Assembly: GCA_002731985.1 (NCBI GenBank)
Contig: PCCT01000092.1
Coordinates: 1 to 25,950 of the forward strand
Direction of reading: 5' to 3'
DNA: 25,950 bases
From: Nitrospinota bacterium
GTDB lineage: Bacteria; Nitrospinota; Nitrospinia; Nitrospinales; VA-1
Shown here: in pieces, positions 4,224 to 23,173 of the stretch
Position numbering within the stretch: position 1 is the stretch's first letter
How the letters are laid out: each line of letters starts with the position of its first letter
Notes under the pieces: generated by a model
Databases searched by the model: none
What the model was told of the DNA's origin: nothing
The model's input: the letters and a program-made list of their open reading frames with translations, nothing else
Translations under genes and position numbers: made by a program

Positions 4224-5633
4224 TCAGGAAACAGAAATTCCCACCGGTGGAGCTTTGTTTTTCCATCGACGCACGTCCTTCATGAACTGTTCGATTTTCA
4301 TTTCCCTGTCATTGGGGAAAATGATCCTTAGAGGTTGGGGGAACCTCTTCTCTTGGGGATAATACTGAAAACCTCCATTCTCAACCTTATAAATGTTATG
4401 AAAAGTGCGATACTGGGCGGATCCCCCGATGAAATCCCAATTCGCCTTTTTCTGGATCAATCCATATAACTCCGAGCAAGCGATCCCTTCATACATGTTG
4501 ATCTTCGCTGTTCGACCTCTTTGAACTTTTGGCTCTTCAGAAAAATCTATCGTCCATATATAGGAACATCCCTCTGCTCCGAAAACTTCAAGTTGATAAC
4601 TTATCTTCCAATGTAGCCACACTTCCGCCATCTCGGTTTGAAGGAGCTGATCGACCATCTCTTCTTCAACAAATGTTATCACTTCCTGCCTTTGTTTCTC
4701 ATGCGCGGCCTTCTCCTTCGTCAGGGTTTTAATGGAGGGAACTGCGGCCACCGGCTTGAACTCGACTATGGATTTGTCATTTGCATCGATGCGGACAAAA
4801 TCGGAATCCTGTGGCAAAATTTTCACACCATGCTTAGAAATCTCTACTACGTCCCCATGAGCAAACGCGCTTCTTTTAACCTCGGGACAAAATTCGGCCA
4901 GATCGATCAGAAACTGTTGAGGGGATGTCGGAAATGAAAAATTATTGAGGAAACCAAATTCATCGCTATAACGGAATGCTGCTGATCCAGGGAGGATAAA
5001 TTTTGGTTTCAGCATTTTGACCATTTTAAGAAAGGACTGGTATTCAACAAACGGAAGCTTGAGCGGTTGATGAAAAACAAAATTTCCTTCCAAAAGGGTT
5101 TCAAATCGGACATGAGCCAAATCAATTTGTTCGCAAAATTTATATATATATTCAATCACCTGCGGAGTGACGACCGAATCCACCTGGTTCCATATCGTCA
5201 CCTCGCCATCTTCAATGAGAAAACCATGCTCTGGAGGTTCCCCTTTGGGGAGAATGGAAGGGGTATAGGTCAGGGTAATATCTTTTACCTTATAAGGCCT
5301 GAAATCTTCCACCACCTCGATTTCCGCGTAATCGAGCTCCCTCATGATCTCCAGCATTATATCGTCATCAGGAGCAAAGACTTTCACATCGGGGGAAAGG
5401 ATTTTTGAGTTTCTGAGATAAGCCAGAGTGCGGACGTCAAAATGGTCCATGTGGATATGCGAAATATTTAATACATCCACCTGAGGTACTTTTTCAAAGT
5501 CCAATACGATACTTGGGCAAAGGACATTGATTTCCTCCCAATGCGGATCAAACCAGACAGGATCCGTCAACATCGTACAGTTTTGGGATTGAATCAACAG
5601 ACAGGCGTGACCGATGTAGGTAGTTTTAATCAT
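4224..5633 (-). CDS. Metallo-beta-lactamase-fold hydrolase with C-terminal extension
   Basis: The N-terminal half is a metallo-beta-lactamase fold of the UlaG / CMP-NeuAc hydroxylase-like branch: TYIGHACLLI, the TDPVW strand, and the metal motif H59-x-H61-x-D63-H64 in SHIHMDHFD. At 469 residues it is about twice the length of a minimal MBL domain. Residues from about 290 to the end form a second domain rich in aromatic residues that I do not recognise; no Rieske CxH/CxxH motif is present, unlike CMAH-type hydroxylases. The substrate is unknown. It follows the putative 2OG oxygenase gene by 60 bp on the same strand, so the two probably act together. No strong Shine-Dalgarno sequence precedes the ATG. 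A 6-bp inverted repeat (ACCTTC/GAAGGT, 4199-4223) directly follows the stop, too weak to call a terminator. Confidence 0.8.
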   Translation of the reverse strand: MIKTTYIGHACLLIQSQNCTMLTDPVWFDPHWEEINVLCPSIVLDFEKVPQVDVLNISHIHMDHFDVRTLAYLRNSKILSPDVKVFAPDDDIMLEIMRELDYAEIEVVEDFRPYKVKDITLTYTPSILPKGEPPEHGFLIEDGEVTIWNQVDSVVTPQVIEYIYKFCEQIDLAHVRFETLLEGNFVFHQPLKLPFVEYQSFLKMVKMLKPKFILPGSAAFRYSDEFGFLNNFSFPTSPQQFLIDLAEFCPEVKRSAFAHGDVVEISKHGVKILPQDSDFVRIDANDKSIVEFKPVAAVPSIKTLTKEKAAHEKQRQEVITFVEEEMVDQLLQTEMAEVWLHWKISYQLEVFGAEGCSYIWTIDFSEEPKVQRGRTAKINMYEGIACSELYGLIQKKANWDFIGGSAQYRTFHNIYKVENGGFQYYPQEKRFPQPLRIIFPNDREMKIEQFMKDVRRWKNKAPPVGISVS

Positions 5634-6492: not shown

Positions 6493-6526
6493 GAAAAAGA
6501 GCCCAACCTTAAGTTGGGCTCTTTCC
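6493..6526 (-). terminator. Rho-independent terminator of the idr-like operon
   Basis: AAAGAGCCCAAC (6496-6507) and GTTGGGCTCTTT (6513-6524) form a perfect 12-bp stem with a 5-nt loop. Read on the minus strand the stem runs into five T residues (complement of 6494-6498), giving a canonical intrinsic terminator about 70 bp after the last gene of the minus-strand operon. The plus-strand side has no U-tract, so it acts mainly on leftward transcription. Confidence 0.9.
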
Positions 6527-6593: not shown

Positions 6594-8228
6594 TCACTCT
6601 CCTGTATGAGCCCGCCCTCCGTTTGTGAAGGCATCGAATATATAGGCGATCAACTGCCAACGCTGTTCTTCTGACAACCAATCTTTCCAAGGTTTCATCT
6701 TGGTTTTCGGAACCCCTTCGGAAATCCTCCAGAACAGGTGGGCGTCCGAGTAGGAGTTCATTGTGGTTGCCACACGAAAATCACGGGCTTTCTTGGCCTT
6801 GGGCCGTCCTGAAACCCCATGACACTTGGCGCATTTCTGCCTCTTGATATTCCCCTTCTTGGTTTTAACATCAAAACCATCCTGGTAAAGCACCTTCCCA
6901 GCCGCGATCACATCCGTATTACCCCACCATCCCGCTGGCATGACCTTACCCGTGTAATCAGAAGGAATAACAATTTTTTCTTCAGCTTTCTCGATGTAAT
7001 GATGACCTGGATCCTTCAGAACCCACTTTTTGAAAGGTTCGTGAATCGTGTAGGGGTACCCTTGTTCCCCATACTTGGCAGGTCTTGCGTCGGCATAAGG
7101 CATCGAGTCGCTACTCATACTCTCCAGGAATGCCACCAGAGCCGCTTTTTCAGAAGTGAGCAGGCCAAGCGGCTGGATCATGGCGTTCTTGTTGGGATGC
7201 GGTCCGCCTCCCTGGTCATAGAACTCCACAATTTCTTCCAAGGTGCTTAACGTTCCGTTATGCATATAAGGACCGGTGTATTTCAGTTCCCTGAGAGACG
7301 GGGTCCGAAAAGCTCCTTTGTCCTTTTCCTCCTTGGTGACCATATAGCGCCCAAGATCCGAGATAATTTTATCCCACTGAGGTACGCCAATGATCATATT
7401 TTCATAACGCAGTCCAACCTGGCGAGTCGGGTTAGTCGACAGTTCGGGATGGTCTGGCACACCGATGTTATAGTACTTGCTGTCGCTGACCAGCGAACCG
7501 TTATGACAGCGGATACATTTCCCCCGGCCCTTAAACACTTCCATTCCCTTTTTCTGCTGGGCGGTCAAAGCTGATTCGTCGCCCGTCATAAATCGGTCGA
7601 AAGCATTAGCGCTAGGACTCGAGGTTAATGTACTTACAAATTTGCAGAGGACTCTTTGAATCTTACCGAAGTAAATCGTCCGCTTAATGCCGAACAGATT
7701 CTGGAACCGTTTGTAATACTCCGGGATCTGACGCGTCCGCTCTTCAATGTACCGTCCATCGGCGTTCATGAACATCTGCGACGTCATATGTGTACGAGTC
7801 GTGGTATCACATTTGTTTTGAGTACCATTCAACATCTGCTCATATTGCCGGTTGGCATTGAGAAGTGACGGCGCGTTTCGAAAATGCGCTGTTCCAGGAT
7901 AACCGTTGGACAACTGCTTTCCATCGCTGTAACCCTTCTCCGGGACATGACAGTTCGCGCAGGAATCCGACGCATCCCCGCTGTAGCGATTATCAAAAAA
8001 TATGAGCCGTCCCAGTTCCACCTCTTCCGGGCTCAACTGCTCTTGAGAGAGAGGCCCCAATGGAGGATACCCCCCCCAATAGGCTTTCGATCCGCTACCT
8101 TCTTTTTTGGTACCACTACCTTCTTTCATAGCGGCCGAAACTGACGAGCTCGCTATGAACAAAACCATCAAGATGACGCTCAAGGCTCCCATCCCGATTA
8201 AAAATCTTTTGTTTCGTTTCATTTTCAT
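6594..8228 (-). CDS. Tri-heme cytochrome c peroxidase-family protein (IdrP-type)
   Basis: From the ATG at 8228 the protein has 544 residues with an N-terminal membrane anchor or signal peptide. The frame opens at a TTG (8273), but the ATG fits the signal sequence and is preceded by GGAAGG. It has the two CxxCH heme sites of the di-heme CCP/MauG family (CANCH about residue 90, CIRCH about 238), and the family blocks LIFFDNRYSGD, FRTPSLREL and GPYMHNGTL. Unlike a standard CCP of about 330-450 residues, it carries an additional C-terminal cytochrome c domain with CAKCH at about 466 and a Met-rich region (KTKMKPW). Proteins of this family act in the periplasm; in the iodate reductase system the two such proteins are proposed to deal with H2O2 or oxo-intermediates. 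Last gene of the operon. Confidence 0.9.
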   Translation of the reverse strand: MKMKRNKRFLIGMGALSVILMVLFIASSSVSAAMKEGSGTKKEGSGSKAYWGGYPPLGPLSQEQLSPEEVELGRLIFFDNRYSGDASDSCANCHVPEKGYSDGKQLSNGYPGTAHFRNAPSLLNANRQYEQMLNGTQNKCDTTTRTHMTSQMFMNADGRYIEERTRQIPEYYKRFQNLFGIKRTIYFGKIQRVLCKFVSTLTSSPSANAFDRFMTGDESALTAQQKKGMEVFKGRGKCIRCHNGSLVSDSKYYNIGVPDHPELSTNPTRQVGLRYENMIIGVPQWDKIISDLGRYMVTKEEKDKGAFRTPSLRELKYTGPYMHNGTLSTLEEIVEFYDQGGGPHPNKNAMIQPLGLLTSEKAALVAFLESMSSDSMPYADARPAKYGEQGYPYTIHEPFKKWVLKDPGHHYIEKAEEKIVIPSDYTGKVMPAGWWGNTDVIAAGKVLYQDGFDVKTKKGNIKRQKCAKCHGVSGRPKAKKARDFRVATTMNSYSDAHLFWRISEGVPKTKMKPWKDWLSEEQRWQLIAYIFDAFTNGGRAHTGE

Positions 8229-8265
8229 CACCCACCACCTTCCTTGTTGGTTATTTAACTTTTCT

Positions 8266-8278
8266 GCGGCCAAGCCGC
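8266..8278. other. Small GC hairpin in the leader of the tri-heme gene
   Basis: GCGGC-CAA-GCCGC gives a 5-bp stem with a 3-nt loop between the cupredoxin-like gene and the tri-heme peroxidase gene. There is no following U-run, so it is not a terminator; it may influence mRNA stability or translation in the operon. Confidence 0.35.
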
Positions 8279-8323
8279 GTACATTTCCTAAAAAATATAA
8301 AAATTCAAGTTTTGATCAATCTC

Positions 8324-9067
8324 TTATCGACCGCTACCAGCCCCTGAAAAGGCGAAGCTGGCTTCTGCAGTTCCACCGCCATTCACGGTGATTTCCTTCT
8401 TCTGCTCACCGAGAATCGGATGCCAAGCCACCAACTGATAGGTTCCCGGAGGAACGTCATTGATCTTGAAACTTCCATCCTTTTCCGCCATGGTCCAATA
8501 GGCGTTGGTCGCTACCCGGACCCAGGCATGCATGAAATCATGCTGATCACATTGGATCTTCACGACATTGCCTTTTTTGACCCGAAGTTTCTTAGTTACC
8601 ACGGATCCTTTTTCGGGCAGGCCTACATTCCACAGGGTCCGTCGGGCCATGCCACGCACCTCGAAAGGATGCGGGTTGTGGCTGACTGGATCCTCGTTGA
8701 CAATTGCAAGACCGGGAGCTTTTTTCCTCCCCTTACCCAGCTTTTCCACAACACCGGAGAACGGTAAAAATGCGCAACCCCTGCCCACCATCTTATGCTC
8801 AGTAGGTTCTTTGGACTTGCCTCCGTCCATCCCCTCAATCAACACAGCGACACCTTGTACCACGCCGTTTTTGACCGTGACATGAAAGAAATCCATTTCT
8901 GCACCACAGAAATCTGGGTTTTTCGTGATTGTAAAATGTTCAGGTTCCGGGGGCGTCCCCTCATAAGAGATCTTTCCGCCGACTGAACCTCCAGCCGCAG
9001 AAACGCTGCCTGCTTGCGCCACCCCGACAATAAAAATTACCATCAGTAAAAATATTTTTCGGTTCAT
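8324..9067 (-). CDS. Exported cupredoxin-like protein with carboxypeptidase-regulatory-like domain
   Basis: The 247-residue protein has a signal peptide ending near AGSVSAAG. The central part resembles a cupredoxin: a candidate His130 in DPVSHNPH, and the segment I-Q-C173-D-Q-H176-D-F-M179-H gives the Cys-x2-His-x2-Met arrangement of type 1 copper ligands. A short beta-sandwich of the carboxypeptidase regulatory-like type follows (EKDGSFKINDVPPGTYQLVAWHP). Such proteins occur in periplasmic electron-transfer clusters and would suit a soluble carrier between the Rieske/Mo enzyme and the peroxidases; this is inference. The start is supported by AAGGAGAT upstream. It sits between idrA-like and the tri-heme gene, on the same strand, with gaps of 94 and 95 bp to the chosen starts. 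Confidence 0.8.
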   Translation of the reverse strand: MNRKIFLLMVIFIVGVAQAGSVSAAGGSVGGKISYEGTPPEPEHFTITKNPDFCGAEMDFFHVTVKNGVVQGVAVLIEGMDGGKSKEPTEHKMVGRGCAFLPFSGVVEKLGKGRKKAPGLAIVNEDPVSHNPHPFEVRGMARRTLWNVGLPEKGSVVTKKLRVKKGNVVKIQCDQHDFMHAWVRVATNAYWTMAEKDGSFKINDVPPGTYQLVAWHPILGEQKKEITVNGGGTAEASFAFSGAGSGR

Positions 9068-9110
9068 AACTATCTCCTTTGCCTGATTCTTTTGAGATTT
9101 ATTTTTATCG

Positions 9111-9141
9111 GGCCCCCACCTTACGGAAACAGGTGGGAGCC
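9111..9141 (-). other. Intercistronic hairpin downstream of the idrA-like gene
   Basis: GGCCCCCACC (9111-9120) and GGTGGGAGCC (9132-9141) can form a 10-bp stem including one wobble pair, with an 11-nt loop, in the 94-bp gap between the idrA-like gene and the cupredoxin-like gene. On the minus strand the following sequence is A/T-rich but lacks a run of T, so it is more likely a processing or partial-termination element than a full terminator. Confidence 0.5.
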
Positions 9142-9161
9142 GTTATCGCCGTTACCAAGGA

Positions 9162-11822
9162 TTAAACCTTCTCCTTGAAGGTCATACGTTTCTTCATATA
9201 ATCTGGAATGGTGCCTATCTTTTTAATGGCAGCCTTCCCGAGTTTGTACCGCGGTGCGTTGGTCAGCGGATCGGCCACCGCAGATGACAGGGAATTGGAA
9301 GCGCCCCCGCCGGGCCAACAGAAGTACATGAAGGTAGTACCAGGCGGTACGACACTTGTCACGTAGGCCATGGCCGAAGCCGACCCCTGAGTCTTCTTGA
9401 TGTAACCGTCTTTCTCGAGGTTCGTGAACAGAAAGTCCTTGTGCCTGGCGCGATAGAATCCTCCCACCTGCACATAGACCTCATCGTTCTCAAGCGAAAC
9501 GATGTCACCGTTTTCGATTCCCCTCTCAGCGGCGTCTTTCGGACTTATTTCTATGAAATTCATCGGATGCCGCTGCATGATGTAGGGTTTTCGCATATCA
9601 TCGAAGACCGACTGCCAGAGCGCGTTGATGCGGCCGCAAGTGACCCACAACTCGCCTTTATCCTTCTTGGGTTTGATCCGGTCATAGAAATCACCGAACA
9701 GATTCCAGTCGACCTTGTGGAGATAAAGCTTCCCGGACGGCTTGGTGAAGCTTCCCGACCTTTTGGACTTGGTAGTGATCCCCTGACCCGAATCGATATG
9801 CACGTGTGGATTGTGCAGGCGTTTGGTCTCGATCAATTTGTTGTTATGCAGGCGAAGCGGCAGTTGGTACCCTGTCGCGGCCCGCTTGCGCAGGATGTCA
9901 TAGGGCTGTTTGCCGTTGATGGCGGCGTACTTCACCAATGGCGCCAGATCCTGCCTGCTGTTACGGGTGAACCGGGCCAGCTCCTTGAAGACATCTTCCG
10001 AAGTCTTCCAGTCGTAGCCATCGAAACCCATCTTTTTGGCCACCATAGAGATGATTTTCCAGTCCGGCTTGGCATCCCCCGGCGGATCGTAGAACTTGGA
10101 ATAAATCCTGAGAATCCGCTCACCCTGGGCACGCGTGAAGTTCTCTTCACCCCAGGTCGCTGCGGGCATGACCAGATCGGCGAATTGGTTGCCGATAGTC
10201 CTCAAGTAGATTTCATTATTGATCAGCACCATGTCACCGGCATCGGCACGCGCCTTCAGCCTCTGGATGACGTGCTCGACATCAAAGCGCTCCACCTGAT
10301 GCTTACTGCCTGTGGTGTGCTCCTTGATGTAGTCCGCCAGATCCTGAGAACCCTGCATGGCTTCGATCCAGTTAGTTCCGATGACCCACATGAAGCGGAC
10401 ATGTCCGGACCGGACCCAGTTATCGACGTTCAGCGCCTTGCGACCGATTTTGCCGAACCGCTCGGGCGTTTTCGACCGGGGATAGGACGCGGCGCTCACG
10501 CCACCACGCTGATGTCCACCGGCGCGACCGATGACTTGACCGTCCCGAGTTCCGGCGCCGCAGATGATAGCCAGGTTGCCGAATGAAATGGTATTGAGAT
10601 AGTTGTTGGACCAGTAATTGCCCTTCTCTAACATGAAGGACGTTTTGGGGCGCCTCTTCTTTCCAGCGCCGGTGAGTATCTTGCACGCTTCGATGATTTT
10701 TTCGCGCGGGATACCAGTCATCTTCACGGCAACATCCATCTCGGCGTATTTTTCTTTCAGAACCCACTTCTTCCACTTTTTGAAGGACGCTCCCCAGCGG
10801 GTACTGCGCCATTGCCAAGGTGTATTTCTAGTTCCCCGGCCCATGCCCCAGTCGAGTTCCTCATCGCTGGCGGCCCAATGGTCGATATGGTCCTGGTCCT
10901 GCCAGCCCTGTTCGATGATGTACCGGCACATGGCGTTGTGCAGGATGGCATCGGTACCGATGGTCACCTGAAGCCATATCCCGTCGTTTTCTTCGGCCCA
11001 GGTGACACCCGGTGACTTCCGGGGAAGCACCATGACCAGCTTGGGTGCACCTTCCATGATATGCTCGGTGAACAGAATCGTCTTGGTCTCATAGGGATCG
11101 GTCCCCGAGATGAAAATCACGTCTGATGCCGACCAATCATCATAGGAAGGACCAAAGGTGTCGATACCCATATCCTCAAGCCCACTGGCGTCATCCTGGG
11201 CAGAAGGTTTGTCGTGATGGGCGTAGACCGGCGTCTCGATACTTTGCAGGGCCAGCTTGGTGATAGCATAGGTATTTTCATAAAACTGGTAAGAGTAGGC
11301 CTTTACTCCGTAAGCCATCTCGCCATATTTGTCAAACACATAGCGTCCCACTTCTGCCGTGATGGTGGTGGCGTCTTCCCATCCAATGGGTTGCAAGACA
11401 CCCCGCACCCTCAACAGGGGCTGTTGCAGGCGGTCACTGGTGGCCCTCCAGGGGCTGTAGCATTTCTGGGCAATGCCTCCGCCGCGAACGCTGTGGTTCC
11501 CGGACTTGTTGACCCGTTCGCTGATGGCCGGGACCACGAGACAATTGTGCGGCTCGCCGTTCTTAAGAACGACCGTGTGCTGATTGGGGCTGGGCCAGCT
11601 CCCGACCAGCGATTCTGTGCGTGGATAATCCACCTTAAATGCGTTTTCATTTGCCTTGGGACCGCCTTCTTTTCCTACCGGCCACGTGATCGCCCGATAC
11701 GCACAGCCAACGATACAGTAGTCACAGGCAGTGGATACGATCTCTGCGTCCGAAGGCGGAAGCGGTACACGATCCTTCGGTAGATCTTGTGAGTATGTAA
11801 CATTCCTTCCGGCGTTACTCAT
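9162..11822 (-). CDS. idrA: AioA/IdrA-type molybdopterin oxidoreductase, probable iodate reductase catalytic subunit
   Basis: This 886-residue protein belongs to the arsenite-oxidase-like branch of the DMSO reductase family, with two Mo-bis-pterin domains and a C-terminal molybdopterin dinucleotide-binding domain. The N-terminal cluster motif is C33-x2-C36-x3-C40, and a serine (S111, in HSVRGG) takes the place of the usual fourth cysteine, as in AioA, predicting a [3Fe-4S] cluster. Against Alcaligenes AioA (aligned from memory) the arsenite-site residues His, Arg and His appear kept (H203, R433, H437 in GRAGGHQ), but Glu203 becomes Asp211. No signal peptide is present; AioA/IdrA proteins ride out with their Tat-exported Rieske partner, encoded 85 bp upstream. 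GGAGGT precedes the ATG. The peroxidase genes around it favour IdrA over AioA, but substrate remains unproven. Confidence 0.85.
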   Translation of the reverse strand: MSNAGRNVTYSQDLPKDRVPLPPSDAEIVSTACDYCIVGCAYRAITWPVGKEGGPKANENAFKVDYPRTESLVGSWPSPNQHTVVLKNGEPHNCLVVPAISERVNKSGNHSVRGGGIAQKCYSPWRATSDRLQQPLLRVRGVLQPIGWEDATTITAEVGRYVFDKYGEMAYGVKAYSYQFYENTYAITKLALQSIETPVYAHHDKPSAQDDASGLEDMGIDTFGPSYDDWSASDVIFISGTDPYETKTILFTEHIMEGAPKLVMVLPRKSPGVTWAEENDGIWLQVTIGTDAILHNAMCRYIIEQGWQDQDHIDHWAASDEELDWGMGRGTRNTPWQWRSTRWGASFKKWKKWVLKEKYAEMDVAVKMTGIPREKIIEACKILTGAGKKRRPKTSFMLEKGNYWSNNYLNTISFGNLAIICGAGTRDGQVIGRAGGHQRGGVSAASYPRSKTPERFGKIGRKALNVDNWVRSGHVRFMWVIGTNWIEAMQGSQDLADYIKEHTTGSKHQVERFDVEHVIQRLKARADAGDMVLINNEIYLRTIGNQFADLVMPAATWGEENFTRAQGERILRIYSKFYDPPGDAKPDWKIISMVAKKMGFDGYDWKTSEDVFKELARFTRNSRQDLAPLVKYAAINGKQPYDILRKRAATGYQLPLRLHNNKLIETKRLHNPHVHIDSGQGITTKSKRSGSFTKPSGKLYLHKVDWNLFGDFYDRIKPKKDKGELWVTCGRINALWQSVFDDMRKPYIMQRHPMNFIEISPKDAAERGIENGDIVSLENDEVYVQVGGFYRARHKDFLFTNLEKDGYIKKTQGSASAMAYVTSVVPPGTTFMYFCWPGGGASNSLSSAVADPLTNAPRYKLGKAAIKKIGTIPDYMKKRMTFKEKV

Positions 11823-11907
11823 GGTGTTACCTCCAGTTGTATTGTTAAATCCTTTTCAGAATCTTTGATGTCTCAACTTGTCCCACGGGCTGATCCCCGG
11901 CGGGCAA

Positions 11908-12528
11908 TCAAACTCCCATCATATTGTCGGGGTATCCATAAATCAGCCCCAACACACCCACCGCGTAGATATCATTCCCCTCCAGTTCCAGCACGATTTG
12001 CGGAAGATTCTGGACAGCTGAAGCGCTGACCATCATCCCGTGTCTTGTTAAATCAAATGTGGAGAGATGAAACTCGCACGGCCCCATTATCTTTTTTTCA
12101 GCATCGTATTGATCCTCCAAAGGGCCGCCCTGATGCGTACAGAAGGCGTTGAAGGCCACAACATCCTGATTGGGACCAATTCCGCCAAGAGCCGGTTCTC
12201 CCAGTTTAATCAAAAGAGCCTTTTGGCCATCAGCTTCACCGGGATATTGGATCGTGACTGGACGATCCTTTTTGAGCGCACTCAAACTACCAACCTTGGT
12301 CCGGGGGTAGCGAACCGTTCGGGCGGTAACTGCCGCACTAACCATACCCCCCTGATTCGCCTCTGCCTTTCCGGAGAAAATCTGGGAGGGCAAAAGCATA
12401 GACATAGCCGCAAGTCCACCCACCTTTCCACCGTTCATCAGCAACTTCCGGCGGGAAATACAGCCAGCTTCCTGAGGGGACGTTTCCTGAGTTGCGTCGG
12501 CCTCTTGTTTTTTTGTATTCTCGCTCAT
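11908..12528 (-). CDS. idrB: Tat-exported Rieske [2Fe-2S] subunit (AioB/IdrB type)
   Basis: The 206-residue protein carries a twin-arginine signal (S-R-R-K-L-L at residues 25-30, then a hydrophobic GGLAAMSMLL segment). The Rieske ligands are C130-x-H132 (CTHQG) and C151-x2-H154 (CEFHLSTFD), and the C-terminal block AVQNLPQIVLEL...LIYGYPDNM closely resembles AioB. It should form the small subunit that shuttles electrons between a periplasmic carrier and the molybdenum enzyme encoded next, and carry that folded subunit through the Tat pore. The family's structural disulfide cysteines are not evident: the usual CTHxxC-type third cysteine is missing. AAGGAG lies just upstream of the ATG. The Rieske gene precedes the catalytic gene, as in aioBA, whereas described iodate-reductase operons read idrA then idrB. 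Confidence 0.9.
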   Translation of the reverse strand: MSENTKKQEADATQETSPQEAGCISRRKLLMNGGKVGGLAAMSMLLPSQIFSGKAEANQGGMVSAAVTARTVRYPRTKVGSLSALKKDRPVTIQYPGEADGQKALLIKLGEPALGGIGPNQDVVAFNAFCTHQGGPLEDQYDAEKKIMGPCEFHLSTFDLTRHGMMVSASAVQNLPQIVLELEGNDIYAVGVLGLIYGYPDNMMGV

Positions 12529-12586
12529 ATTCCTTCTCCTTATTTTTCTTGGGTTTCCATTTATTTCAAATTCACTCGCTGAAAGA

Positions 12587-13828
12587 TCACTTCTTTTTCG
12601 AGGTTACTTTTTCTGGCAACTCAACCAGAACGCCCGTTGCGGTCATGATTCCATCCGGCGGTATCCTGGGAATCTTATAATTCTTACCCGGCATCTCATC
12701 GCTACTGAGGGCCATGAGAAAAGCTACCAAGGCCGCTTTTTCATCATCCGTCAGATTGAGAGGTTTCATCAGCGGGTCTTTTTTCCCAGCGAGCGCTGCT
12801 CCGCCGTCCAAGTTAGGCCCACCACCCACATTGTAGAAATCAACCACCTCTTCCAGATCAAAGAACACGCCGTTGTGCATATACGGCGGAGTCCATTTGA
12901 GTTCTCTCAGTTGCGCGGTTCGCCACTTGTGAATGTCATCGGGGCGGTGCGTGGAGAAATAGAGCCCCTTGTCTTCATCCACTTCGTCGTAATTCAAAAT
13001 CCCAAACGCCTTCGATCGGTATCGGATGGAAATCTGGCGAAGCGGGTCTTCATCGAACGCCTCGTTGCGCGGGAGACCGAGATTGTGAAAATCCTGGTTC
13101 GTCATCAACATGCCATCATGACATTGGATGCATCCCGCCTTGCCCTCGAAGAGTTTCATTCCCTTGATTTGCTGCTCGGTCATGGCGGTCCTGTCACCGT
13201 TCATGTAGCGATCAAAAGGAACGTCTTTAGGATCGGTGTTCAAAGTGCGTTCGAACGCAGCTACTGCCCGGGCAGCGTTATCCCAGGTCGGGGGTTCGCC
13301 GAAGATCTCCTGCATCATCTTGACGTAGACCGGAACCTGCCTCATCCTAGCTTCAGCCATTTGAGCTGAAACATTGTTAGACTCTTGCCCGAACCCTGCG
13401 GCACCAACCTGAGCTTCAAGACTCAATGACCGCCCGTCCCAGAAATATTTATTCAGATGGATATTGTTCAAAACGGTTTGTCCGGCGCGGAAATGCAGGG
13501 TTCCCGGGTAGCCGAAGGAAAGGTCGTCCGGCTGGGACCACGCGTACTCTGGCCTGTGACAGGCCGCGCAAGGGGTGCTACCGTCTCCGGACAATCGCCC
13601 GTCAAACATCAACATCGCGCCGAGCTCTACTTTTGCCGGGGTGGTCACATTATCCTTTTGCGCATTCGGTAGTAAGATGCCATTAGCCGGGATCGGCGGT
13701 ACAGGCGCCAGCGGGCGCGGTGTTGCGGACCCCTGCGACCCAGCAAACGCGGGCATGACTGTAGCCAGCATGAATCCAATTGCCAGTAAAGCTAAACCAA
13801 TTTCCTTATTCGATTTTCTTTGCATCAT
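12587..13828 (-). CDS. Di-heme cytochrome c peroxidase-family protein (IdrP-type)
   Basis: The 413-residue protein has a cleavable signal peptide (LALLAIGFMLATVMPAFAG). Two heme c sites, CAACH (87-91) and CIQCH (233-237), sit in the standard two-domain CCP/MauG arrangement, with LMFDGRLSGDGS before the first and FDRYMNGDRTAMTEQQ before the second. Family blocks RTAQLRELKWTPPYMHNGVF and ALVAFLMALSS are also present. Classical CCPs reduce H2O2 to water in the periplasm; in iodate-reducing bacteria two such proteins are encoded with idrA and idrB. It is the first gene of the operon, with GGGAGG before an ATGATG start, and 58 bp from the Rieske gene. It is not a duplicate of the tri-heme protein: the two share the core but differ in length and loops. 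Confidence 0.92.
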   Translation of the reverse strand: MMQRKSNKEIGLALLAIGFMLATVMPAFAGSQGSATPRPLAPVPPIPANGILLPNAQKDNVTTPAKVELGAMLMFDGRLSGDGSTPCAACHRPEYAWSQPDDLSFGYPGTLHFRAGQTVLNNIHLNKYFWDGRSLSLEAQVGAAGFGQESNNVSAQMAEARMRQVPVYVKMMQEIFGEPPTWDNAARAVAAFERTLNTDPKDVPFDRYMNGDRTAMTEQQIKGMKLFEGKAGCIQCHDGMLMTNQDFHNLGLPRNEAFDEDPLRQISIRYRSKAFGILNYDEVDEDKGLYFSTHRPDDIHKWRTAQLRELKWTPPYMHNGVFFDLEEVVDFYNVGGGPNLDGGAALAGKKDPLMKPLNLTDDEKAALVAFLMALSSDEMPGKNYKIPRIPPDGIMTATGVLVELPEKVTSKKK

Positions 13829-15206: not shown

Positions 15207-18200
15207 TTAATTCACCTGAATTTTAACGGCAACGGTGGTCCCCTTGCCTTTGATCCCGCTGATTTTCACCTGCCCATTCCAAAGAAGAGCGCGTTCCCGG
15301 ATCCCTATAAGCCCGAGGGATTTGGAATTGGAAACCTGGTCTTTAGAAATCCCCTTACCATTGTCCTGTACTTCCAGAGTCAGAGTACAGTTCTTTTTAT
15401 GAAATTCTATACTTATTTTGCTTGCCCCGGCATGACGTGCCACATTGGTCAAGGTTTCCTGAAGGATTCGGAATATCGCTGTGGAAAGGTCGGGGTCCAA
15501 ATCCAGGTCACATAAACTGGAATTAATTTTACACTCGATTCCCGTCCGTTTCTGAAATTCCTGCGCCTGCCACTCAATGGCTTCGGTGAGACCCAGCATG
15601 TCCAGAACCTCGGGTCGCAGATTGGTCGAAATCGTTTGCACGCTTTGGATGGTTTTATCGATTAGGGTTGACATGGTTTGTGTCCGCTCCAAAACTAATT
15701 TTTGCCTGTTGTCTACCTTCTTTTCCAGCCAAGAAAGATCAATTTTCAAAGCGGTTAACATTTGCCCCAATTCGTCGTGGATTTCCCGGGAAATGCGGGT
15801 TCGTTCCTCCTCTCTTATGGATTCCAGGCGGTTATAAAGGTCGCGCAATTCCTGTTGAGACTTTTTCAACTTTTCCTCGGCTTGGTTACGCTCAGCTATG
15901 TTGCCCAGCTGGGTTCCAACATTTTCCATAACTCCCAACAAGTCGTTATCGGGTTCTATCGTTTCAGTAGAGAAAAACTCCAACACCGCAACGATCTTTT
16001 TTCCAACCAGTACGGGGAACCCAAACCCAGCTTTGACACCCAAGTCCTTCGCCAGTTTGGCTCTGGGAAAGTTCGGATCTTTATTGATGTCCTCAATCCA
16101 TAATGGTTTTCTAGAAGATAAGATCCTCCCTGGCAGGCCGACACCGGAAGAAAACGGAACGGCTTCCGTCACCTTTTTAAAAGTGGCAAAACGGTTTGGG
16201 TCATCCAAGTGCCAAACCTCGGTGGGAATCAACCCGATGAAATTTTCATCCGAAACATATAAGTGCCCAACGGGCCAGCCTGTCAGTTCGCAAACCAGCT
16301 TGAGACATACCTGCACCGCTTCTTCCATGACCGTGGCTTCATTCGAAGCTACGGCAACATCTTTCAGCAATTGATTAAACATAACCTCTTTTTGCAGATC
16401 CATTTCCATTTTTTTCTGCAGAGTGATGTCCTCTTTGACTGCAAGGTAATGAGTAATCACCCCCTCGTCATCTTTGATTGGGGAAATGTAAGCCAGTTCC
16501 CAATAAAGTTCCGAATCCTTTTTCTTGTTATGAAATTCTCCGCGCCATTCTTTCCCAGCGGAGATGGTCTCCCACAAATTTTTATACTCTTCTGCAGGAG
16601 CCTCTCCAGACTTTAAAAAACGGGGGTTTTTTCCGATAACTTCTCCGGGGAGGAATCCGGTCACTTGCGTGAACTTGGAGTTCACATATTCAATTTCTCC
16701 AGTGAGATTGGTGATGATGACTGAGGTTGGGCTCTGCTCGACCGCCTGGGAAAGTTTTCTGAGTTCCTCCTCCAACCGTTTGCGTTCGGTGATATCACGT
16801 ATGACCCCGACGAACCAATGACGTTCACCCAGGACCATTTCACCCACCGACAGATCGATGGGAAAGGTGGTTCCATTTTTTTGCAAACCAAGAACCTCCC
16901 TTCCCAACCCTATAATCCTGGCTTGGCCCGTTTGGAAAAAACTCTTCATATGTTCCGCATGTTCCCTTTTATGGGGCTCAGGCATCAACAAATTAACAGG
17001 CTGGCCGATGAGTTCAGACTCTTGATAGCCAAAGATTTTTTCAGCCGCCGGATTGAAGGACTGGATGGTCCCGCTTTCATCGATCGTGACTACTCCCTCA
17101 ACCAGGTTTTCCAATATTCCCTGAAGGTAAGTTTGGCTTTCCTGGATCTCACCGGCAAAAACGATAGCCCTTCTTCGTCCCAAATCCAAAGTGATGGACA
17201 GCCCCAAAGACAAAACCACGGTGAGGACCAAACCGATCATCAATGCCCATCGCGTGATATGGTAGGCTTGGTAAGCCTCCAACCGCTCTATCTCTGAGGT
17301 CAGCCCGAAATTCAGCTCTTCATTCCAAAGCCAGGTGCCTACGACGGGAACCCCTCTGTAATCCCTATAGCCGTCAAGATTGACTCCGGACCTGCCCTGA
17401 GTAGCTTGTTGAGCCATGTAGGTCAACGGTTGTTTGGAACGGGGAAGCGCCGGGCGAAGACCTTCCAGTAAATTGACACCGGGGTCACGGATCTGGACAT
17501 TGAGGATGCTGCGCATCGCCGGGCCGATCAAACCGATCCGCTTCAGTTGCTGGTCGAATCGGCTTTCTGTAAGCAGCTTCCCAGTTTCATCAAAAGCATA
17601 GGTTTCACCCGTTTCGCCAATACCGCCGAGCCTCGTGATGCGACTGAAATCATCTACCGGGTCGACCCTAAATGTCAGTACGGCTAAGGTGACACCGTTT
17701 TCGCTAATGGGGGCGGCAACAAACATGGTGGGTTGACCTTTGGACAGTTTCCCCAAGGCATCGGGCAAGAGAACGTCGGATTGCAAAATCTTACTGATCA
17801 GGACATTCCCATCAAAGATCCTAGGCAAAAATCCTTCGTAGCTAGAAAGCAGATTTGGCGTGCCAACATTCACATCACGCATGGAGGCTATGCTTATATT
17901 ATCTGGAGTGATGATAAAAAATCCGACATAATTCTTTTCTGCCATCACGGGTTGCAGGAGAGCCCGCATCTCTGTCAGAGCCGGACTCGCCAGAAGAGCC
18001 TGCGGGTTGCGTGGAACATTCATTTGTTCTTCAACCAATCGTTTCAACTCTGAGGATAACCCCCAGGAAGTCACCTCCGTCAGGCGTTTTAAAACACTGT
18101 TGTGTAGCGCTTCTTGTGTGGTGTTGATGACCGTGTTCAGCGTAACACGAATGTCGTTCCGAATCTGGCCTTCGATCTTGGACAGAATCAACCCTGCAAT

Positions 18201-18362
18201 GACGGCGGTAAAAACTATCAGGATCGAGGACGAAATCCAGATTAAACCGCGGCCGTAGGGCTTTTGGTGAATCGCTGGCTTCTGTTTCCTATTTGGTGGA
18301 TTCTGATCCTGTGAAGAAGGGGATATTATTTTTTCCTTTGAGGTCCTAGCGAACAAACTCAT
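15207..18362 (-). CDS. Membrane sensor histidine kinase (dCache-like/PAS/PAS/GAF/HisKA_3)
   Basis: This 1051-residue kinase has a cytoplasmic N-terminal tail, a first membrane helix at about 39-61, an extracytoplasmic sensor of about 310 residues (probably dCache-like), and a second helix at about 372-395. Two PAS domains follow (NPAAEKIFGYQESELIG... and NSKFTQVTGFLPGEVIG..., with linkers DITERK and DITLQK), then a GAF domain at about 665-815 and a NarX-type transmitter. The HisKA_3 block is EEERTRISREIHDELGQ with the phosphoacceptor at His862, and the ATPase domain shows LQETLTNVARHA and DNGKGI. NarX-type transmitters pair with NarL-type regulators, and the gene for one follows within two bases. 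The sensor region is paralogous to that of the kinase at 20306-22714. Confidence 0.95.
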   Translation of the reverse strand: MSLFARTSKEKIISPSSQDQNPPNRKQKPAIHQKPYGRGLIWISSSILIVFTAVIAGLILSKIEGQIRNDIRVTLNTVINTTQEALHNSVLKRLTEVTSWGLSSELKRLVEEQMNVPRNPQALLASPALTEMRALLQPVMAEKNYVGFFIITPDNISIASMRDVNVGTPNLLSSYEGFLPRIFDGNVLISKILQSDVLLPDALGKLSKGQPTMFVAAPISENGVTLAVLTFRVDPVDDFSRITRLGGIGETGETYAFDETGKLLTESRFDQQLKRIGLIGPAMRSILNVQIRDPGVNLLEGLRPALPRSKQPLTYMAQQATQGRSGVNLDGYRDYRGVPVVGTWLWNEELNFGLTSEIERLEAYQAYHITRWALMIGLVLTVVLSLGLSITLDLGRRRAIVFAGEIQESQTYLQGILENLVEGVVTIDESGTIQSFNPAAEKIFGYQESELIGQPVNLLMPEPHKREHAEHMKSFFQTGQARIIGLGREVLGLQKNGTTFPIDLSVGEMVLGERHWFVGVIRDITERKRLEEELRKLSQAVEQSPTSVIITNLTGEIEYVNSKFTQVTGFLPGEVIGKNPRFLKSGEAPAEEYKNLWETISAGKEWRGEFHNKKKDSELYWELAYISPIKDDEGVITHYLAVKEDITLQKKMEMDLQKEVMFNQLLKDVAVASNEATVMEEAVQVCLKLVCELTGWPVGHLYVSDENFIGLIPTEVWHLDDPNRFATFKKVTEAVPFSSGVGLPGRILSSRKPLWIEDINKDPNFPRAKLAKDLGVKAGFGFPVLVGKKIVAVLEFFSTETIEPDNDLLGVMENVGTQLGNIAERNQAEEKLKKSQQELRDLYNRLESIREEERTRISREIHDELGQMLTALKIDLSWLEKKVDNRQKLVLERTQTMSTLIDKTIQSVQTISTNLRPEVLDMLGLTEAIEWQAQEFQKRTGIECKINSSLCDLDLDPDLSTAIFRILQETLTNVARHAGASKISIEFHKKNCTLTLEVQDNGKGISKDQVSNSKSLGLIGIRERALLWNGQVKISGIKGKGTTVAVKIQVN

Positions 18363-20305: not shown

Positions 20306-22714
20306 CTAATCGTTTTGAAGGGGCAGGTCGATAATAAATGTGGTTCCTTTTCCTCTCTCGCTTTCCACATCGATGGTCCCGCCATGTTTTTGGATCAAGC
20401 TGTTGCAAAGCGGGAGTCCCATACCCGTTCCCTGACCTTCAGGCTTGCTACTGAAAAAAGCATTAAATATTTTCTCCAGATCTTCCTTTTTTATTCCTAT
20501 CCCCGTGTCGGCTATTTTTATCCTGATAAAATTTGACCCGTTCTTGATTACCTGCCCGGCACTCGTAGTAAGGGTTCCGCCCTCAGGCATAGCAGGCCCG
20601 GCGTTGTCGATAATATAGAAAAACACTTGTCCAATTTCGTCTGGATTCACCTTCAACTCCGGCAACTCAGGGTCAAAATCCCTACGAATTTCAATGCCGT
20701 TCAATTGCATATGGTGACCCATCAGGGTCAGAATCGAATCCAATTCCTCATGGATCTTGACCGATTTAATTTCCCCTTCATCCTCTCTGGAGAATTTCAA
20801 AAGTGATCGGATAATTTTTTCAATACGCTCAGTCTCCTCTCGCGACGTACGAAGTGATTGAAGCAAATCAGAATCTTTGCTCTTCATTTTAACCTTCTGA
20901 AGATGGGTTGAGATGGTATTGATTATGCCTAGAGCCTCGCGACAGACACCTGCCGTCAATCCACCTATACCAGCCAATTTTTCAGAAGCCATCAGACTGC
21001 TGTGGGCTTCCTTGACCTTGGATAGGGATTCCTTAAGTTCTTGATGCGCCTCTTGAAGTTCATCATGGGATCGTATTAACTCATCTTCTGCCTGCTTTCT
21101 TTGGGTGATATCACGCAGGGTCCCGATAAATATCCTGTGGTCTTCCAACCATACTTCGTTGACCGCAATATCCAGAGGGAAGACAGTTCCGTCTTTTTTC
21201 AATCCCTCCACCTCACGTCCGATTCCGATTATTTTTGATTCCCCTGTTTCCAAGTAATTTTTGAGATAGGTATCGTGGGCACTGTGATCAGGTTCCGGCA
21301 TCAAAATGCTGATATTCCGTCCGACCACTTCAGGAGAAAAGTAACCAAAGATTTTTTCAGCGGCCGGACTAAAGGATTCTATGATGCCTTTTTCGTCTAT
21401 GGTAATAATTGCATCTCCCACATTATCGACCACTCCGCGAATGCGTGCTTCTCTTTCCTGAGCCATTTTGGCAAATTGAAGGGCGCGGGTACGACCGACA
21501 TCCACTGCCCCCACCAGACTGAGGGCGCGAACACGACCAACATTCACTATCAGCGTGATGCCAATGGCCAAGATACCTGTCAACCCAATCGCAGTCAGGA
21601 TAAGTTTTCGTGTAAAATCAAATGACCGGTAGGCTTCATTCGCCCTGATTTCAGTGGCCAGAGCAAGTTGCATGCTGGGATCCCAGGTCCAGGCACCCAC
21701 AACCTCAACCCCGCGGTAATTCCGGTAGACGTCAATATTTATTCCTGCCTTACCCGTTGTAGCGATACTTGCCATGGCAGTGAGGGGTTGTTCATCCCGG
21801 GCTAACTCCGGTTGAAATCCTTGAATCAGGTCTCCTCCGGGATCGCGGATCTCAATGGAAAGGATTCCTCTCCTACCTTTGGGAAGCAAGCCCACCTTCC
21901 GCAGTTCCTTGTCAAACCGGCTGTCTGAGAGCAACATACCGTTGGCGTCAAAGGAATAGGTTTCACCGGTTTTTCCAAATCGCCCCAGTTGCAAGATCCT
22001 TGTGAAGTCCGCAGCTGGGTCCAGCCGGAAGCCCAGGGCAGAAATGATCTCGCCTTCTTCATCAAAAATGGGCGTCACCACAAACATGGTGGGTTCCCCT
22101 GCGACAACCTGCCCACTATAAAGACTTAACAAGGGGACATCAGAAATGACAGGATGACTGAGTAAGGTTTCCCCATTAAAAACCCTTTCAAGAAAATCTC
22201 CATTCCCGGCCATCAAGTTGGTTAAACCCAGGTTGATCTCCCGCATGGATCCGATATTGGATGAGTCAGGGGCTATGATGAAGTAACCCAAACGCCTATT
22301 CATACTACCCTTGCGTGCAAGCAAATTTTTGAGCCTGGCCTGAGCAGGAGAATTCTTCAGTGCCTCGCGGGTTCGGGAAACTTTCAATAACTCCTCTACA
22401 ATCCTCCGCAACTCGATAGATTGAGCCCAGGTAACAGCATCTGCTTTTCGTTCAAACTCCCAAATATGCAAGGCTGAATGGGTGGTTCTCAGAATAGTCT
22501 TAAGTGAACCGGAGAGGTCTTCCCGGGTTTGAGCCTCGATTCGCTCCAGGGTGTACCAGGCTATGACCGATACAATCAGGAAGAATAAAAAACCAATTCC
22601 AAAAATAAGAGTTTGCCCTAAACGACCTTTTTCCTGATGAGAGCCACCTGCGAGTTTGTCAGGTTCCCGGTTGGATTCGGGATCGGCGAGTATAGATTTT
22701 TCGGGTGAATTCAT
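20306..22714 (-). CDS. Membrane sensor histidine kinase-like protein lacking the phosphoacceptor His
   Basis: I start the protein at ATG 22714 (802 residues); the frame remains open to 22963, but those 83 residues look non-coding. It has membrane helices at about 35-55 and 352-375 flanking a dCache-like sensor paralogous to that of the kinase at 15207-18362, then a PAS domain (FSPAAEKIFGYFSPEVVG, linker DITQRK), a coiled coil, and a HisKA/HATPase_c transmitter. The ATPase boxes look intact: IIDNAGPAM (N), ADTGIGI (G1), FFSSKPEGQGTGMGL (F/G2). In the H-box the expected AHE is C-R-E (LAGIGGLTAGVCREALG), with Arg at residue 592 (codon CGC, 20939-20941). No response regulator gene is adjacent. 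It may signal by dimerising with another kinase or act as a phosphatase. Confidence 0.88.
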   Translation of the reverse strand: MNSPEKSILADPESNREPDKLAGGSHQEKGRLGQTLIFGIGFLFFLIVSVIAWYTLERIEAQTREDLSGSLKTILRTTHSALHIWEFERKADAVTWAQSIELRRIVEELLKVSRTREALKNSPAQARLKNLLARKGSMNRRLGYFIIAPDSSNIGSMREINLGLTNLMAGNGDFLERVFNGETLLSHPVISDVPLLSLYSGQVVAGEPTMFVVTPIFDEEGEIISALGFRLDPAADFTRILQLGRFGKTGETYSFDANGMLLSDSRFDKELRKVGLLPKGRRGILSIEIRDPGGDLIQGFQPELARDEQPLTAMASIATTGKAGINIDVYRNYRGVEVVGAWTWDPSMQLALATEIRANEAYRSFDFTRKLILTAIGLTGILAIGITLIVNVGRVRALSLVGAVDVGRTRALQFAKMAQEREARIRGVVDNVGDAIITIDEKGIIESFSPAAEKIFGYFSPEVVGRNISILMPEPDHSAHDTYLKNYLETGESKIIGIGREVEGLKKDGTVFPLDIAVNEVWLEDHRIFIGTLRDITQRKQAEDELIRSHDELQEAHQELKESLSKVKEAHSSLMASEKLAGIGGLTAGVCREALGIINTISTHLQKVKMKSKDSDLLQSLRTSREETERIEKIIRSLLKFSREDEGEIKSVKIHEELDSILTLMGHHMQLNGIEIRRDFDPELPELKVNPDEIGQVFFYIIDNAGPAMPEGGTLTTSAGQVIKNGSNFIRIKIADTGIGIKKEDLEKIFNAFFSSKPEGQGTGMGLPLCNSLIQKHGGTIDVESERGKGTTFIIDLPLQND

Positions 22715-23173
22715 GTTGGTGTTTTCCAATCTCTGCAAATAGAAAGGTCCACCGCATTGCTTCCATTTTTCCTTATTCTTTTTTTCACACAAATCTCCAT
22801 CAATCAAGATATGCAAAAGTAAAAATATATTTCCCAAAAGAGTATCCGAATAAGTCTGATTTTTTAATAGGACAAAACTCCCAGGAAAAAAGACCGCAAT
22901 TTTAAAGAAATGGCTGGGAAAAAGGATGCTTTTCGGCCAAGAATAAGAATAATACCTTACCAAAATTCACTAATGCGGCGTGGACGTTCGAATCTGAAAG
23001 TCACGGCCCAAAGAAACCACTTTTTTATCCGTCCATTTTTAGTCTTTCATAAGCTTCCAAATGAAGTTTCTGAATAAAACATATTACATAACTTTTACAA
23101 GGGAAGGTTCCGTTTCAGTGTTAAAATTTTTCCAAGTTGATAGACTCCACGTCTAACTCTATCTGAAAAAATC
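22715..23173. other. Divergent intergenic region before the radical SAM gene
   Basis: About 460 bp separate the chosen kinase start from the radical SAM start. The left half is formally open in the kinase frame but has low-complexity A/T-rich character and no recognised domain. The right half is A/T-rich and presumably holds the promoters of both genes. No RNA gene, repeat or strong dyad was found. Confidence 0.4.

Follow-up and report, generated by a model that had tools for sequence, protein, structure and literature searches.

A divergent Idr-type operon, probably for iodate reduction, on a likely Nitrospinaceae contig

Iodate reductase genes have been described as idrABP1P2 clusters, in which a molybdenum (Mo) enzyme (A) and a Rieske subunit (B) are accompanied by two di-heme proteins (P1 and P2). 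The available text of PMC8692401 reports idrABP1P2 in all IdrA-clade neighbourhoods surveyed, and that of PMC10989891 gives the gene order P2, P1, B, A for Candidatus Methylomirabilis iodofontis. We analysed a 25,950-nucleotide contig of a marine Nitrospinota bacterium (GenBank assembly GCA_002731985.1, contig PCCT01000092.1; hereafter the window), whose minus strand carries at 13828-6594 five genes transcribed in the order P1-B-A-Cu-P2, where Cu is a cupredoxin, and then a strong terminator. We regard these genes as probably, though by no means certainly, a divergent Idr-type iodate reductase operon, controlled by an adjacent two-component system, in a lineage of nitrite oxidisers (Nitrospinaceae). 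The five genes and the terminator are as follows.

12587..13828, minus strand: P1, IdrP1-type di-heme protein of the MauG/cytochrome c peroxidase (CCP) family, 413 amino acids (aa), 2 hemes (two CxxCH), from Pfam and the P-protein tree
11908..12528, minus strand: B, IdrB/AioB-type Rieske subunit with a twin-arginine translocation (Tat) motif, 206 aa, IdrB-like CTHQGGPL...LGPCEFH, from Pfam and NCBIfam
9162..11822, minus strand: A, IdrA-type catalytic subunit with Mo-bis-molybdopterin guanine dinucleotide and a 3Fe-4S cluster, 886 aa, from Pfam, NCBIfam, trees and diagnostic columns
8324..9067, minus strand: Cu, cupredoxin, 247 aa, with an N-terminal hydrophobic stretch, from ligand residues and the modelled fold
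6594..8273, minus strand: P2, IdrP2-type di-heme MauG/CCP protein with a C-terminal mono-heme cytochrome c, from Pfam and the P-protein tree
6494..6524, minus strand: intrinsic terminator after P2, folding at -22.5 kcal/mol (z -3.98)

Open reading frame (ORF) and Pfam evidence confirmed the five same-strand genes proposed in the initial annotation, and its closing terminator is a hairpin with a U-run at about 6494-6524. The genes are separated by 50-94 bp. General scans for sigma-70 promoters and terminators yielded no more than in shuffled sequence. The composition of idrABP1P2 (A, B, P1, and P2) is present, including two di-heme P proteins. Our reference for this system was the locus of Denitromonas iodatirespirans IR-12 (L069; L, G, and P with numbers are our labels for loci, genomes, and proteins); the Pseudomonas sp. 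SCT idr sequence was not in the comparison. The two loci are alike in their four core genes, two orthologous P paralogues, pocket residues, insertions, Tat Rieske subunit, and a catalytic subunit that appears by eye to lack a signal peptide; the Tat motif of B was found by pattern, and P1, P2, and Cu were likewise judged by eye to begin with hydrophobic stretches. They differ in that the window has its Cu-P2 block after P1-B-A instead of before, a P2 fused to a cytochrome c, and a cupredoxin, none being detected in L069 (phmmer E <= 1e-4), and in that the window A is 48% identical to Denitromonas IdrA. Arsenite oxidases (AioAB of NT-25, Thermus, and Nitrobacter, and the AioA-like proteins of the Nitrospirota group) share with the window the superfamily, the pairing of Rieske and Mo subunits, and His203, Arg433, and His437. 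In contrast to them, the window lacks the AioA-only insertions, has pocket exchanges of E to D and E to R, and has di-heme proteins and a cupredoxin adjoining.

The catalytic subunit has Rieske_3 3Fe-4S, Molybdopterin, and dinucleotide-binding domains. At the positions that we take, in A. faecalis numbering, to form the arsenite pocket, it has H203, D204, S207, D211, R433, H437, and R439, identical to Denitromonas IdrA, whereas all 15 AioA-type proteins have H, N, A, E, R, H, and E; the window protein thus does not have the AioA pocket. The pocket Asp occurs in 81 of 91 IdrA-clade proteins and Arg at the last pocket place in 90 of 91. In two loci of Nitrospirota-group genomes (L105 and L106), P and B lie upstream of an Idr-type A that has Glu at the AioA-E203 position and Asn at the Ala199 position. 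We also defined 12 diagnostic columns, fixed differently in 93 IdrA-clade proteins (at least 95%) and in the 15 AioA-type proteins (all). Ten of the 12 are in the IdrA state in the window A, compared with 7 to 11 among members of its branch. All six IdrA-only runs of at least five columns, two of them adjacent, are present in the window A, and neither of the two AioA-only runs is.

An arsenite oxidase with unusual neighbours would fit the database names: A matches TIGR02693 above cut-off (437 versus 359 bits), and the NCBIfam name of both A and B, above cut-off, is 'arsenate reductase (azurin)', as it is for public relatives. The match is non-specific, however, since an Azonexus protein from a P-P-B-A cluster carries the same product name. 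The N, A, E, and E states of AioA are absent, identity to the NT-25 and Thermus AioA is 31% and 32%, and no arsenic or denitrification genes occur among the flanking ORFs scanned, in line with the initial annotation. We consider an arsenite oxidase very improbable and rejected it as the leading interpretation on pocket states, insertions, and tree placement; by its sequence, A is not of the arsenite-oxidase type but Idr-type.

Three trees of A were built: a quick one of 82 rows, for which 23 of 105 rows were removed by choice, and two careful ones, of 48 chosen rows and of 38 chosen rows with additional AioA; the 38-row tree excludes L112 (split frame) and L106 (partial). The tree set took 18 of 120 database-match proteins; L001, L082, and L094, which repeat the window, L002, and L003, were left out of trees and residue counts, and the haloarchaeal/Dehalococcoidia 'unknown clade' of PMC8692401 was not among the outgroup sequences. 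The window A is not nested in AioA: the split has full support in all three trees (100/100 in the 48-row and 38-row trees), and pocket, insertions, and columns agree with it. An IdrA clade holding Denitromonas forms without the window (97, 99/96, and 99/99 in the 82-, 48-, and 38-row trees, all starred in the trees). The window groups with L002, L003, and the protein P0002 (99, 100/99, and 100/98, likewise starred), and next out are P0003-P0005 and the Nitrospirota loci L004, L042, and L047; P0002-P0005 are metagenome proteins with no organism or context on record. This branch of 11 rows, which include the near-identical pairs L004/P0008 and L042/L047, is one clade in the 82-row tree (98, starred) and in the 38-row tree (87/80, unstarred), where the long AioA branch meets the ingroup, and is not recovered as a resolved clade in the 48-row tree. 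A deep, divergent relative of IdrA, as the initial annotation had allowed, is therefore what the tree placement supports, but its alternative wording, an 'ancestral' iodate reductase, is not borne out, since the trees fit a sister group and a basal grade alike. Because A lies outside the validated clade and the gene order differs, we do not, on a strict test of its sequence, count the operon as IdrA proper; we file it as a sister or basal lineage. IdrA-clade proteins also occur in other Nitrospinota (L044, L028, L041, and L095) and in one Nitrospirota-group genome (L105), so these phyla hold proteins of both the IdrA clade and the window's branch.

Gene order was surveyed from ORFs with phmmer matches at E <= 1e-4 in a genome scan covering the best 80 of 528 confirmed stretches, which biases the survey to close relatives. 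Exactly two P genes start within 6 kb in 43 of the 52 loci that have at least 4.5 kb upstream and at least 2.5 kb downstream of A. AioA-type controls have B-A without peroxidases, both in three plasmid loci (about 6 kb each side) and in the AioA-like loci of 12 Nitrospirota-group genomes, where the flanks are short. A cupredoxin of the window's family (>60 bits) was found in 22 of the 52 loci. It lies upstream in 20, all outside the branch and typically as Cu-P2-P1-B-A, and downstream in two branch loci (L002 and L047). When shorter contigs are counted, Cu directly follows A in all five branch loci that continue past A (the window, L002, L003, L042, and L047). The copper protein had been taken as an addition to the idr set; outside the branch, 20 of 50 loci have it upstream (of these 50, 44 were placed by the 82-row tree and L018, L026, L055, L073, L075, and L076 by identity only), which makes it a common idr neighbour instead.

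The window's P1-B-A-Cu-P2 is not the conserved order P2-P1-B-A seen in the Azonexus plasmid and in the available text of PMC10989891. The initial annotation was right that the order departs from idrABP1P2, but the arrangement is neither scrambled nor private, being common to the Nitrospirota loci L042 and L047. A private rearrangement or an assembly error was rejected given its recurrence in L002, L047, L042 (partial P2), and L003 (P1-B-A-Cu to the contig end). Given the position of Cu by branch, the difference is mainly one block, Cu-P2, placed before or after P1-B-A. Whichever arrangement is present, Cu and P2 are adjacent, and L047 has the cytochrome c as a separate 163-aa gene after P2; together these observations suggest that Cu, P2, and the cytochrome c may work together. 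Some loci depart from these patterns. In L061, an IdrA-clade locus, A is followed immediately by a P gene; movement of P is thus not unique to the window's branch. Four Chloroflexota/Dehalococcoidia loci of the IdrA clade (L043, L064, L067, and L072) have one di-heme P directly before A and no Rieske B at the same threshold, at odds with the statement on idrABP1P2 in the available text of PMC8692401. Among 395 sampled genomes from the phylum of G081 (the genome of L047), 12 have AioA-like B-A pairs (L107-L119) and three an Idr-type A, so both kinds occur in that phylum.

The P proteins had been described as a di-heme and a tri-heme CCP. Membership of the di-heme CCP/MauG family holds for both, but neither is a classical bacterial CCP with a Met axial ligand at the high-potential heme: the residues aligned to Tyr352 of P2 are the Tyr of 6e1c and a Met of the CCP chain 3hq6, and Tyr332 of P1 lies in the column of Tyr352. 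We take 6e1c to be MbnH and this Tyr/Met residue to be the axial heme ligand. The MauG-type Tyr is present in 113 of 116 P proteins, a count that excludes those of <=300 aa and >=620 aa (partial or fused), and P1 has both it and the inter-heme Trp (Trp130). The best NCBIfam matches of both proteins are TIGR04039 (MbnH) and TIGR03791 (MauG), far below cut-off. Compared with MauG and MbnH, the window proteins differ in belonging to a Mo-enzyme operon and, for P2, in the extra heme domain and the lack of the inter-heme Trp. The three CxxCH of P2, 559 aa as called with a probable true start at the ATG at 8228, resolve into a di-heme MauG/CCP protein fused to a mono-heme cytochrome c. A tree built from 44 of the 116 P proteins splits the two types into distinct clans (98, starred, SH-aLRT), P1 and P2 each falling with their expected orthologues. 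Apparent P2-P1 fusions occur in several lineages (L008, L010, L013, L016, L048, and L073), where one 728-890-aa ORF with 4-5 CxxCH takes the place of both genes.

The cupredoxin has a modelled Greek-key fold and the ligands His130, Cys173, His176, and Met179, so type-1 copper binding is predicted. Unlike amicyanin- or plastocyanin-type cupredoxins, its copper domain is modelled inside a transthyretin/FnIII-like sandwich.

The operon is conserved in two Nitrospinaceae genomes and, as far as a short contig reaches, in a third Nitrospinota genome. The window's genome (G000) is 1.58 Mb and 65% complete. G002 is of the same family, a different genus by our grouping, and 91% complete; G066 (the L003 stretch) is 70% complete and falls, by the same grouping, in the window's taxonomic order but in another family. 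One G002 contig carries the end of a metallo-beta-lactamase-fold gene, a 233-aa protein gene, P2-Cu-A-B-P1, a response regulator, a LuxR regulator, and a kinase as in the window, and a second contig keeps the order epimerase-kinase2-radical SAM. These genes are 66-91% identical to the window's, and the metallo-beta-lactamase end is 93% identical over 43 residues. In a check for mis-binning across 46 genomes of the family (own included, none outside it), epimerase homologues were found in 31 and homologues of the metallo-beta-lactamase-fold gene in 38, mostly at 50-64% identity; many are probably paralogues, given this low identity and the second epimerase copy in both G000 and G002. The radical-SAM gene was matched in 3 of the 46, and G002 has the copies closest to the window's epimerase (80%) and radical-SAM gene (76%). 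From these nearest copies and the order in G002, the contig likely belongs to its family, with the exact genus unsure.

G002 also encodes an NxrA-like protein, truncated where its contig stops; across residues 13-861 it shares 89% identity with a 1167-aa protein from the single-contig genome G027. We presume the NxrA name for both from Nitrospina, and NCBIfam gives them the DMSO-reductase II subfamily, below cut-off. An NxrA-like protein at 56% is encoded by G028, which is of the window's own genus. The guanine-plus-cytosine (GC) content of the five operon genes is 0.49-0.55, versus 0.40-0.48 for flanking genes, and GC at third codon positions (GC3) of A is 0.68 in the window and 0.77 in G002 (L002), above the flanks. 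Horizontal gain was not accepted as shown by these values, since the NxrA-like gene of G002 has a similar GC3 (0.69).

If iodate is the substrate, as the sequence of A suggests, A would be exported by Tat together with B and reduce iodate in the periplasm. By analogy with AioAB and IdrAB, electrons would pass from a periplasmic cytochrome c pool, which nitrite oxidoreductase (NXR) could fill, to B and then to A. The fusion and the gene order point to the P2 cytochrome c and the cupredoxin as possible additional local carriers. P1 and P2, MauG/MbnH-like by sequence, may remove or use H2O2 or hypoiodous acid (HOI) formed as by-products. The potentials at pH 7 are about +0.67 V for iodate/iodide and about +0.43 V for nitrate/nitrite, so coupling iodate reduction to nitrite oxidation would be favourable, at roughly 46 kJ per nitrite.

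Several findings weigh against a divergent iodate reductase in a nitrite-oxidiser lineage. The window's branch lies outside the clade of validated IdrA, and we know of no assayed member of it. E609 and P857 hold the AioA state at two diagnostic columns, and the Ser at the AioA-Ala199 position is non-specific, this position being G in 45, S in 27, A in 13, and other residues in 6 IdrA-clade proteins (n = 91). Of the 116 P proteins, 111 have the inter-heme Trp; in the window P2 it is replaced by Leu148 (the L002 orthologue keeps the Trp), and the P1 proteins of the branch members L042 and L047 lack the MauG-type Tyr. A close copy of A occurs in 3 of 77 Nitrospinota genomes, namely the window's own and, at 88-91% identity, G002 and G066. 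No NxrA match at E <= 1e-20 was found in the 65% complete G000, in G066, or in the Nitrospirota genomes G079, G080, and G081.

The same machinery might serve another oxyanion, with the Idr gene set kept in a reductase for, e.g., bromate, chlorate, or selenate. The branch is deep, the window A shares 47-53% identity with the IdrA-clade proteins in the comparison, its two deviating columns differ from IdrA, and substrate range shifts easily within the DMSO-reductase family. Set against this are the seven pocket residues, all equal to those of Denitromonas IdrA, and the retention of P1 and P2, which the model in the available text of PMC8692401 ties to iodate chemistry; we hold a different substrate to be unlikely. 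Somewhat less doubtful, and compatible with iodate as the substrate, is a role in detoxification or redox balance, in which an aerobic nitrite oxidiser would remove iodate (or HOI/peroxide) at low flux and gain no energy by respiration. The patchy presence among Nitrospinota fits such a role, as does the available text of PMC11445184, in which marine aerobes with idr reduce iodate under oxygen limitation and an electron sink is proposed. The high GC3 of A in G002, like that of its NxrA-like gene and above the flanks, speaks against it in that it may suggest strong expression, although other explanations exist. We retain the divergent iodate reductase operon as the preferred reading, at the strength given above.

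Nitrite oxidation with iodate has been raised before. Babbin et al. reportedly proposed in 2017 that iodate oxidises nitrite in oxygen-free seawater. PMC11373643 and PMC8114937, which cite that proposal, count iodate in their available texts among the acceptors suggested for nitrite oxidation in the absence of oxygen. An 'arsenite oxidase' is reported upstream of NXR in Candidatus Nitrosediminicolota in the accessible part of PMC11009272, and arsenite-oxidase-named genes in other nitrite oxidisers in those of PMC11009272 and PMC5767232. IdrA matches by phylum are surveyed in Fig. 2 of PMC10746228, of which part was available, and those of Nitrospinota and Nitrospirota may already be plotted there. 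In the literature found, no paper joined idr with Nitrospira, nitrite-oxidizing bacteria, or a cupredoxin, nor was a cupredoxin mentioned as an idr neighbour; the available text on iodate and Nitrospinota mentioned iodate once and arsenite and peroxidase never, and no candidate gene set for iodate-driven nitrite oxidation was named in nitrite oxidisers. A Nitrospinaceae genome (G002) with an NxrA-like protein and an Idr-type operon offers such a candidate set for nitrite oxidation in oxygen-free seawater. It can be traced in metatranscriptomes and tested by expression, which makes testable whether nitrite oxidisers breathe iodate once oxygen is gone. So far the branch is known from Nitrospinota and Nitrospirota, the two phyla to which the main nitrite oxidisers belong; it adjoins the root of the IdrA tree and helps to set the boundary between arsenite oxidase and iodate reductase; the survey also reveals the cupredoxin as a frequent idr neighbour. 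Tentatively, and as a rather unlikely extension, a separate deep branch of iodate reductases in these two phyla might couple nitrite oxidation to iodate reduction without oxygen (IO3- + 3 NO2- -> I- + 3 NO3-), with the P1-B-A-Cu-P2 order, and with the cupredoxin and MauG-type enzymes managing reactive iodine and peroxide; it may preserve an early form behind the widespread idr island.

The genes flanking the operon, on the same strand, include a kinase and two regulators upstream, a two-component system that would control it.

15207..18362, minus strand: sensor histidine kinase (Cache-like, PAS, GAF, HisKA_3), from Pfam; 69% identity over 650 aa, order kept in L002/L134
14551..15204, minus strand: LuxR-family response regulator, from Pfam; 82% identity in L002
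13932..14366, minus strand: single-domain response regulator, from Pfam; 66% identity in L002
5694..6395, minus strand: conserved 233-aa protein beyond the terminator; L002 has it at the corresponding place with 83% identity

The 233-aa protein had no Pfam match at E <= 0.01, and its gene is probably a transcription unit of its own. The remaining scanned ORFs encode ankyrin, thioredoxin-like, FGE, leucine-rich repeat, metallo-beta-lactamase-fold, epimerase, kinase, and radical-SAM proteins. Another large Cache/PAS sensor kinase is encoded at 20306-22963, past the epimerase gene; it is related to the kinase beside the operon and is kept in G002. In several Nitrospinaceae homologues of the metallo-beta-lactamase-fold gene (4224-5633), the match runs through a single in-frame stop, usually TGA, which could be an end-of-gene effect, a frameshift, or recoding.

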